From: Mytilus galloprovincialis
Taxonomy: Eukaryota; Mollusca; Bivalvia; Mytilida; Mytilidae
DNA: 64,000 nt
Assembly (NCBI RefSeq): GCF_965363235.1
Contig: NC_134845.1
Span: forward strand, 9,114,101 to 9,178,100
Direction of reading: 5' to 3'
The notes beneath the pieces are model-generated. The model had not been told where the DNA came from. It did not search any database and saw nothing but the letters and a program-made list of their open reading frames with translations. Shown piece after piece: positions 46,401-49,400 of this stretch (position 1 is the first letter of the stretch; each line of letters opens with the position of its first letter). The position numbers and the translations under genes were made by a program.

Positions 46401-49400
46401 ATACCTCTTTATTTGCCGCAGTGTAATACATGCAGAAGTTGTAAGAGTGGAAAGACAAACATATGTGAAGAATTTCTAGGGTAAGATGCTTCTTTATACA
46501 TATGTGATGATTGTCTAGGGCGAGAAGCTTCGGTATGAATATGTGAGGTTTTTCAATAGTAAGATTCCCCGTTTTACATTGTGAAGGAGTTTCAATAGTG
46601 TAAAATATGAAAAATTTCTAGGGCGAGATGCTTCGTTATACATATGTGAAGTATTTCTAAGGTAAGATGCTCCGTTATACATATGTGAAGTATTTCTAAG
46701 GTAAGATGCTCCGTTATACATATGTGAAGTATTTCTAAGGTAAGATGCTTCGTTATACATATGTGAAGAATTTCTAAGGTAAGATGCTCCGTTATACACA
46801 TGTAAAGTATTTTTAAGGCAAGATGCTTCGTTATACATATGTGAGGAATTTCTAAGGTAAGATGCTACGTTATACACATGTGAGGAATTTTCATGGTAAG
46901 ATGTTCCGTTATACATATGTGAGGAATTTCTATGGTAAGATGCTCCGTTATACATATGTAAGGAATTTCTCAAATAAGATGCTCCGTTGTACATATTTGA
47001 GGAATATCTAGGATAAGAGGTTTCGTTATGCATTATTCTTGAGTCACCTCACTAACAATGGCATGGGGAAACAAATGTGTGTCATGTTTGTAAATGAAAT
47101 TCGTCTTATCACTTGTTGTCTTTCACGTTTAGATTATTTCAATTTACTTGTCTGTTCTTCATTTATTCAGATAGTAAGTTTGAAGAAACAGCATCGTACT
47201 AGAGGTTGCATTTTGCGTTTTTATTACGTTTGTACTGCTAATGGACTTTACAAAATATGGTACAATAAACCCTTCATTTTACGATATAAGTACTTAATTG
47301 ATAAAAGCCGTGTTTATACCTTCAAACGATGATTCTTCCTGTCGATCGTACAAGTATACGTATTTTTTTCTTCCAGAAAAACCCATGCATTCGGATTGTT
47401 GACTGATGGTACTCCTCGCTTCACTTGTAACGGGAAACCAGTTTATCACTTTATGGCTTGTAGTGCGTTCAGTCAGTATGTTGTACTACCACACATGTCT
47501 GTGTGTAAGGTATGTCATATGTCTGTGTGTAAGGTATGTCACATATCTGTGTATGAGGTATGTCACATTTCTGTGTGTAAAGTATGTCACATGTCTGTGT
47601 GTAAGGTATGCCACATGTCTGTGTGTAAGCTTTGTCACATGTCTGTGTGTTAGGTATGTCATATGTCTGTGTGTAAGATATGTCACATGTATGTGTGAAA
47701 GGTATGTCACATGTCTGTTTGTAAAGTATGTCACATGTCTGTGTGTAAGGTATGTCATATGTCAGTGTGTAAGGTATTTCACATGGCTGTGTGAAAGGTA
47801 TGTCACATGTCTTTGTATGAGGTATGTCACATGTCTGTGTGTAAAGTATGTCACATGTCTGTGTGTCAGGTATGTCACATGTCTGTGTGTAGGGTATGTC
47901 ACATGTCTGTGTATGAAGTATGTCATATGTCTGTGTGTTGAGTATGTCACATGTCTGTGTGTAAGTTTTGATCAATCTCTGATATCTGCTCCCTGTTGTT
48001 AAAGTTTTGACCGATTATAGATCTGTATCCCCGTTTTAAAAGTTTGATCAATCTCTGATATCTGTCTTAATTTCTATAGTGTTGAGGTTTTAACCAATAA
48101 ATGACATATGTATCACCATTGTAAATTGTTTACCAATCTTTGAATTCTGAATATCTTTTGTAAAATTCAAATCCGCTTATTATATGTTATATTTTTTAAC
48201 ATCTTCGATTTTAAAATTCCTCTTTTAATTTGAATATAGTGCCTTTTCACTGCCAACTTTACTTCAATGGAACATGCATTGTTATAGGTTCCATTAAACG
48301 ATCATTAGAATTAACTTTCGACTTTTATCGATTTTAGATTGACAACACTGCCCCTTTGGAAAAAGTGTGTTTGCTTGGATGTGGAATAGCAACAGGTTAT
48401 GGTGCCGCACTTAACACTGCTAAGGTAACTTTTAAAGTAAATTCAATGACTAAGGTTTATCTGTGTATACCAACATGCATACCATTTCTTGGTTGATAAC
48501 AGTGTAAAGGGTATGTATATATAAAAAAAAATGCGGTATGAGTGCCAGTGAAACTATGAGGATTACGGGCCGTGAGAAACGGATTTAGATTTTACTTACC
48601 CACCGTGTTGCCGTCTTTAGTGTAATTGTTTTTCGGGGCTGGATACCTCCGTTGATTTTGGATCGGGATACCCAGATTTTAATCAACTTGTTACTATTGA
48701 ACCGCGGTATATACAACTTTTCCTTTATTTATAAGTATCCTGTCATATTTGGTTGGTATTCATGGTCTATCAAACCGTTAACTAAAATGTTATACTGATT
48801 GCTTTTAAGGTAGAGGCAGGTTCTACGTGTGCAGTATGGGGACTCGGACCAATTGGTTTATCTGCAGTAATGGGATGTAAGAAGGCGGGAGCTTCACGCA
48901 TAATAGGAGTTGATATCAACCCAGAAAAGTTCGAATTAGGTGTGCGTTATAATTAGTCTTTATTTAGTTTTAGTTTGCTTTAGTAAGAATATCTAGACGC
49001 AAAAATAAATGTTAGATGTATGGATATTATTAACCTTAAATCAGATTTTTTTTCTCTCGTCAAGCAATGCAAAAATATAAGTAAATTTAAAGTGAATAAT
49101 AATAAACAAAAAAACGGGAAGAAAAGTAATTAGTCTTGTGATAAATATAAAATCATAAAATAACTGAAATCAGAATATTTACTTCAGTTTTATGACTTTT
49201 CATAAAGTGTTTTGATATACTGAGCAAATATCATAAATTTGTGCTAATGTTTTTTTTCGAGTCATCAAGGATACTTATTAGTTTTATTAATATAAAAAAA
49301 AATCTGCACATGATTTGTTATATAAAAGAGAGTTAAAGCATATGTTTAGATTCTTTGAAAAGAATATTGAAAATGGACATGGGTAATGTGTAAAAGAGCG

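Follow-up and report, generated by a model that had tools for sequence, protein, structure and literature searches.

The alcohol dehydrogenase gene

The window, that is, the whole 64,000-nucleotide stretch of Mytilus galloprovincialis DNA that was analysed (C8:9114101-9178100 of a 1.38-Gb genome), carries an alcohol dehydrogenase (ADH) gene of 11 exons on the + strand, the 1167 coding nucleotides of which specify 388 amino acids in an unbroken frame. The exons are as follows, with a slash marking the exon-intron boundary.

43427-58036, + strand: coding span of the ADH gene (gene model; match to human class III ADH; Pfam domains)
43427-43447, 44659-44760 and 45405-45543, + strand: exons 1-3 (gene model)
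46390-46480, + strand: exon 4, ending CTAGG/GTAAGA, phase 2
47377-47509, + strand: exon 5, ending on AAG (Lys162), phase 0
48338-48424, + strand: exon 6, acceptor ATTTTAG/ATTGAC
48810-48939, 49818-49948 and 56360-56495, + strand: exons 7-9 (gene model)
57244-57382 and 57979-58036, + strand: exons 10-11 (gene model)

The closest relative of the predicted protein in the PDB is human class III ADH (518.9 bits, residues 7-376), and the Pfam domains ADH_N and ADH_zinc_N are both found above cut-off. Judged by its translation, the gene encodes a zinc-dependent medium-chain alcohol dehydrogenase of class III-like type. The class III chain residues CHTDAYTL and PKTNLCQKIR are present in gene E, one of four further ADH genes of the same genome described below, whereas the window gene has CHSDLSIL at the first of these motifs. 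Since its residues differ where gene E keeps those of class III, the window gene is regarded as a paralogue that has diverged from the class III gene.

A minisatellite built from the end of exon 5

Exon 5 runs into a 24-bp minisatellite composed of its own terminal sequence and splice donor. The unit consists of CACATGTCTGTGTGTAAG, which is the 18-nt end of the exon, followed by the 6 intronic nucleotides GTATGT, and the first unit crosses the native donor. The array and the donors relevant to the reading frame are listed here.

47492-47965, + strand: 24-bp minisatellite (TRF: 19.8 copies, 85% matches, no indels)
47510-47515, + strand: native donor of exon 5, AAG/GTATGT, matrix score 10.9 bits
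47534-47539, + strand: extra in-phase donor 1 (+8 amino acids), AAG/GTATGT, 10.9 bits
47558-47563, + strand: extra in-phase donor 2 (+16 amino acids), GAG/GTATGT, 10.3 bits
47582-47587, + strand: extra in-phase donor 3 (+24 amino acids), AAA/GTATGT, 5.0 bits
47606-47611, + strand: extra in-phase donor 4 (+32 amino acids), AAG/GTATGC, 9.9 bits
47651-47653, + strand: in-frame TAG closing the read-through, contained in any mRNA spliced from donors at or beyond 47654

Donor scores derive from a weight matrix of the 43 donors of five ADH paralogues, minus the donor under test; for the paralogues, exon boundaries were placed manually, and 4 of the 43 donors score low (0.5-2.5 bits). When the exon 5 junction is compared with its own intron, the match scores 30 against a maximum of 13 among 300 shuffles, which excludes a chance origin. 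The units are not identical, each departing from the consensus by 0-4 changes. GT is kept in 17 of the 20 units, unit 6 having CT at 47630, and the most frequently changed positions are -3 (6/19) and -1 (5/19). A search of the genome with 47300-48000 returned only the segment itself at full length. Look-alike arrays at C12:23584902 and C8:96267154 (L002 and L003) were also scanned with TRF.

Read-through past exon 5 gives 47 open residues, that is, five full extra units, before the stop. The frame is open because the unit is mostly coding, the donor is in phase 0 and the period is, by chance, a multiple of three. The alignment with human class III ADH passes the end of exon 5 gapless, with no insertion needed, and in paralogues C, D and E exon 5 likewise closes with a Lys codon followed by GT (paralogue B, in which the exon 5 donor is undefined, was left out of this comparison). 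On these two grounds 47510 is taken as the ancestral donor, and splicing from any later one would therefore add residues.

The initial annotation of this DNA, made from its letters alone, had described about 20 copies at a 24-base period, a frame open through five extra units, and donors at 47534, 47558, 47582 and 47606 in the phase of the native donor at 47510, with the next acceptor at 48338. The copy number, the open stretch and the GT at all four extra positions are borne out by the analysis, and the gene model places the native donor and the exon 6 acceptor at the same coordinates. Its description of eight-residue units, mostly with two Cys and one His, holds for four of the five full units, VCHISVYE having a single Cys. 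It had also placed the added residues near the junction of the catalytic and coenzyme domains, which agrees with their position after residue 162, given that ADH_N covers residues 35-164 and ADH_zinc_N starts at 205. From this insertion point 14 residues lead to Cys177 of the LLGCG motif, which we take to correspond to residue 174 of liver ADH, a Cys that binds the catalytic zinc.

RNA folding of the exon 5 end with its first units (47470-47660) is ordinary (z = -1.0), and the idea that the extra donors are hidden by RNA structure was rejected on this basis.

Other repeats in the window

A second donor of the same gene is repeated in a similar manner, and a further group of arrays lies nearby.

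46459-46546 and 46608-47033, + strand: 39-bp minisatellite at the exon 4/intron 4 boundary (TRF)
45609-46150, + strand: intron 3 arrays with 32/38-bp units, close to the exon 3 donor (TRF)

The 39-bp unit, which the initial annotation had not noted, combines 22 nt from the 3' end of exon 4 with the 17 nt that open intron 4, and the exon 4 junction scores 30 against its own intron (shuffle maximum 14). Read-through from exon 4 meets a stop immediately after the boundary-spanning codon, so that this array cannot lengthen the protein. The intron 3 arrays were considered as a third case and rejected, since they do not resemble the donor of exon 3 (score 8, z 0.4).

On the minus strand, open reading frames cover both donor arrays (46515-47033, 172 codons; 47469-47975, 168 codons), likely because both periods are multiples of three. 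Elsewhere the window holds a 355-bp unit in 23 copies with 99% matches (10351-18516), a 161-bp unit in 5.8 copies (22956-23893) and an 85-bp unit in 6.3 copies (58826-59360), the last approximately 0.8 kb 3' of the ADH stop codon. Direct repeats at a spacing of 2.6-3.5 kb occur in 1893-7524, where eight ungapped blocks of 138-300 nt are 92-98% identical and probably represent one duplicated segment. Intron 8 (6.4 kb) contains foldbacks at 50237-50877 and 52336-54396, with inverted arms of 103 and 107 nt (98 and 93%) and of 264 nt (94%), which are probably mobile elements.

Recurrence in paralogous genes

A protein search of the same genome yielded four further ADH genes, named B to E. A one-exon locus, F (C8:13.58 Mb), was excluded from the counts.

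Gene B, C8:13.73-13.76 Mb: exons 2-10 located
Gene C, C8:2.137-2.154 Mb: exons 2-10 located
Gene D, C8:34.886-34.905 Mb: exons 2-10 located
Gene E, C9:7.329-7.345 Mb: exons 6 and 7 correspond to a single exon

Repetition of exon ends into the adjoining intron recurs in two of these genes, C and D. An 82-bp unit, made up of the latter half of exon 5 plus its donor, is present in 6.9 copies in gene C (TRF). About 3.6 kb downstream, in the same intron, lie 6.1 more copies of the 82-bp unit, the array being split into two blocks as if by insertion into it. Exon 8 of gene C has a 44-bp donor-spanning duplication and exon 9 one of 62 bp that is still at the two-copy stage. The latter appears as a 66-nt run of identity (2 mismatches) at an offset of 62 nt, and the excess of 4 nt, GTCA, is microhomology as expected at a tandem duplication. 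Gene D keeps one decayed copy of its exon 8 end in the intron, at a 74-nt offset and with 41 of 47 bases alike. Among the donors tested in genes B and E no donor copies were found, and gene E, the closest to class III, has an intron copy at 0 of 7 donors. The units are unrelated from array to array, measuring 39 bp at exon 4 of the window gene, 82, 44 and 62 bp in gene C and 74 bp in gene D.

Donors versus acceptors

The boundary test covered 43 donors and 41 acceptors of the five ADH paralogues, with positions set by hand, and compared 36 nt across each boundary with 500 nt on the intron side, using 300 shuffles. Donors of exon 5 in gene B and exon 3 in gene E, and acceptors of exons 6 and 8 in gene B and of exon 10 in genes C and D, were dropped as undefined. 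The first and last introns of genes B to E are half covered, with exons 1 and 11 not located. The boundary string of exon 5 in gene C is present twice because of its array, and the first occurrence was used. Other MDR gene loci (among L004-L021) were scanned with TRF and left out of the count, their exon ends being undefined.

Copies of the boundary were found in the gene's own intron for 6 of 43 donors and for 0 of 41 acceptors (Fisher two-sided p = 0.026, or 0.055 when the five donors found by TRF are used). The standout donor scores of 36, 30, 30, 30, 24 and 16 each exceed all of their own shuffles, and among acceptors the highest score is 12. The acceptor of exon 6 in gene D (score 11) also exceeds all 300 of its shuffles (maximum 10), far more weakly than the donors.

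When the TRF arrays were rotated at random inside each of the five genes (5000 times), 4.85 donors and 4.79 acceptors were expected to be spanned, as against 5 donors (P = 0.55) and 0 acceptors (P = 0.006) observed; the rotation is a loose null, as it ignores the exclusion of arrays from exons. Donors as a mutational hotspot are not supported by these figures. Within five related genes and on small counts, donors are thus permitted rather than preferred, and acceptors are avoided. Because donors are spanned at the chance level and acceptors avoided, the pattern is better explained by selection on array placement than by a donor-targeting mechanism.

Donor-motif arrays across the genome

A pattern of three copies of AGGTAAGT with gaps of 8-38 was run over the genome and gave 255 overlapping matches, compared with 379 for the reversed motif. 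When distinct arrays were counted by eye from C1 to C2:67.4 Mb, 8 were found for AGGTAAGT and 10 for the reversed motif, and a genome-wide excess of donor-motif arrays over the reversed motif was not found. The pattern AGGTATGT gave 754 matches against 390 reversed, figures which are not array counts since matches within one long array overlap. The acceptor pattern, three copies of TTTTCAGG, gave 91 matches genome-wide; the asymmetry between donors and acceptors was tested in the ADH genes only.

Among the matches listed (C1 to C5), 22 AGGTAAGT arrays were read and 20 fetched. In 6 of the 20 the array starts at an exon end supported by homology.

L067: FLVCR1 exon, E 2.1e-11, period 42
L074: TSP_1 exon, E 5.1e-13, period 40
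L075: GSDH exon, E 3.2e-10, period 40
L076: MORN exon, E 4.7e-7, period 38
L078: poly(A) polymerase exon, E 1.3e-7, period 38
L081: BORCS8 exon, E 2.6e-18, period 24

Weak matches were obtained at L080 (EGF, E 0.003, below cut-off) and L072 (VGLUT2, E 0.037, with no Pfam match). Three others, L062, L070 and L079, look exon-like by eye; searches against Pfam (all three) and the PDB (L062) gave them no meaningful match. No exon was recognised at L064, L068, L071, L073 and L077, which lack a Pfam match, or at L063, L065, L066 and L069, which lack a candidate frame; at L066 the array occupies most of the fetched stretch. As controls, 10 reversed-motif arrays were read from the matches listed and 9 fetched, of which none showed an exon: five open frames over 4 loci had no Pfam match, two frames had no PDB match, and no candidate frame was present at the remaining five loci. 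The difference between 6/20 and 0/9 is not significant (p = 0.14), and the controls were searched less fully, as exons of the donor set were trimmed by eye and five of them searched in the PDB. As donor-motif arrays are no commoner than reversed ones, the claim is limited to their origin: a good share of them are exon-born. That donors breed arrays is no part of the claim.

Two of the fetched arrays resemble the ADH exon 5 array in that the frame stays open past the first donor, namely L072 (39-bp unit, transporter-like exon, several units) and L081 (24-bp unit, BORCS8 exon, about one unit).

Twelve donor-spanning arrays or duplications have both a clear unit and homology support. Their period is a multiple of three in 4 of the 12 (24 and 39 in the window gene, 42 at L067 and 24 at L081), which is the third expected without selection on frame. 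The periods of the duplications in genes C (82, 44 and 62 bp) and D (74 bp) would shift the frame.

Relation to known systems

Tandem repeats lying across exon-intron boundaries have been named 'mirages' in the Adh3 gene of amphioxus (PMC3087553). Further amphioxus loci are described, so that the set comprises Adh3, the globins BflGb6 and BflGb9, PGBD5 and troponin C, and the repeats are reported there as harmless to splicing and variable in length (PMC3087553; PMC3902484). Allelic and somatic length instability forms part of the same description. The present arrays share much with these. As in amphioxus Adh3, an alcohol dehydrogenase gene bears a unit made of exon end and intron start, and the two units of the window gene (24 and 39 bp) lie inside the Adh3 range of 10-72 bp, whereas those of paralogues C (82 bp) and D (74 bp) exceed it (PMC3087553). 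Two other mirage traits are shared, in that the splice signal survives in many units and is lost in others (GT kept in 17/20 in the exon 5 array) and that several loci are affected (6/43 ADH donors, and 6/20 of the AGGTAAGT arrays fetched, with controls at 0/9 and p = 0.14). There are also differences. Both donor and acceptor boundaries are duplicated in the amphioxus account (PMC3087553), whereas in the five ADH genes here only donors are; the host belongs to another animal group, and the window gene, in contrast to the Adh3 mirage, is a paralogue diverged from class III.

In one model of intron gain, the starting point is reportedly the tandem duplication of exon sequence bearing AGGT. Tandem duplication of coding sequence has been put forward as a source of splice sites and of intron gain (PMC4974935); in contrast, no new intron arises here. 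In human duplicated genes, variable repeats at exon-intron boundaries are described as able to alter gene structure, and novel introns are proposed (PMC2812944), whereas the present intron position is old, given the Lys found ahead of it in C, D and E as well, and only the intron grew. The human gene IFI6 (6-16, G1P3) has several splice donors supplied by a minisatellite at an exon end (Turri et al. 1995, cited by PMC4526556 and PMC2572611), and two downstream units are stated to be used as donors, giving three mRNA species (PMC4526556). The exon 5 array is alike in being a donor minisatellite at an exon end. A minisatellite has been linked to splicing decisions in Caenorhabditis elegans (PMC4039745). 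In an abalone gene a 27-bp intronic minisatellite is length-polymorphic and is not described as boundary-spanning (PMC6905558). No report of boundary-spanning arrays in molluscs was found in the open-licence literature. The new elements are their recurrence in paralogues and elsewhere in this genome, and the asymmetry between donors and acceptors.

Competing explanations

The exon 5 array is real, most likely neutral, of a published kind and not special to exon 5. It is probably a mirage, neutral and tolerated, with the first donor (47510) still the main one used. That it is a tolerated passenger is probable because the kind is known from amphioxus and recurs in other genes here. Such an array would start with a tandem duplication across the exon 5/intron 5 donor and grow by slippage or unequal exchange within the intron; the most upstream donor would remain the main one, so that mRNA and protein would be normal and the copies would amount to intron ballast. 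More generally, arrays would arise in introns of the whole genome, those reaching acceptors would be removed by selection, and those crossing donors would be tolerated because the original donor is still first. Sole use of 47510 is not a given, as extra donors 1, 2 and 4 are of near-native strength and when duplicated 5' splice sites are set in competition, the intron-proximal one often wins. The likeness to IFI6, in which downstream units serve as donors, also speaks against a reading confined to the first donor (PMC4526556).

If several donors were used, the possibility raised by the initial annotation, the gene would produce a ladder of ADH isoforms with 0, 8, 16, 24 and 32 additional residues, and array length would translate into protein length. 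The four in-phase donors, of which three differ in score from the native one by no more than about 1 bit, the 47 open residues past exon 5 and the use of downstream repeat units in IFI6 (PMC4526556) are in favour of such a ladder, which is nevertheless judged unlikely. The exon 4 array is closed and the donor duplications of C and D are out of frame, and the insertion would lie 14 residues before the Cys of LLGCG, in a region that is gapless against human class III ADH. A special role is also disfavoured by periods divisible by three in just 4 of 12 donor arrays, and by a donor-array anatomy already published in amphioxus, Adh3 included (PMC3087553). The wider conjecture, decidedly unlikely in our estimate, is that donor-born minisatellites occur genome-wide and that the in-frame open ones (ADH, possibly BORCS8 at L081, and L072) are spliced at several copies, so that individuals would differ in their isoform ladder.

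The array might instead act as a regulator, the donor copies competing for U1 and the donors after the TAG yielding degraded mRNA, such that array length would tune ADH output. An early stop upstream of further junctions makes a transcript a substrate of nonsense-mediated decay by the usual junction rule, and donors from 47654 onwards do carry the stop with five further introns downstream. The intact GT in 17 of 20 units and the C. elegans minisatellite tied to splicing decisions (PMC4039745) speak for this. There is no sign, however, of selection keeping the donors, positions -3 and -1 being the most changed (6/19 and 5/19), and the folding of 47470-47660 is ordinary (z = -1.0), which makes a regulatory role very unlikely. 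An assembly artefact, or a collapsed or expanded repeat, is least probable by far. Copy number in tandem arrays is easily mis-assembled, and that of the exon 5 array in the assembly may be off, but the units differ from one another (0-4 changes each against the consensus), 47300-48000 is unique at full length in the genome, and arrays with other units stand at other donors.

Implications

The neutral, tolerated array remains the preferred account of exon 5. If donor-born arrays do prove to be genome-wide, boundary-spanning minisatellites would be a general outcome when minisatellites grow in animals rich in introns, and not a peculiarity of amphioxus. The asymmetry between donors and acceptors would then be a natural experiment on the choice among near-identical donors, and it would show a simple route to intron lengthening and in-frame exon extension. 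The exon 5 array offers a ready test of donor choice, with five in-phase donors, four of them near-equal, followed by a stop; if used, the donors from 47534 to 47606 would yield whole proteins with 8, 16, 24 or 32 extra residues.
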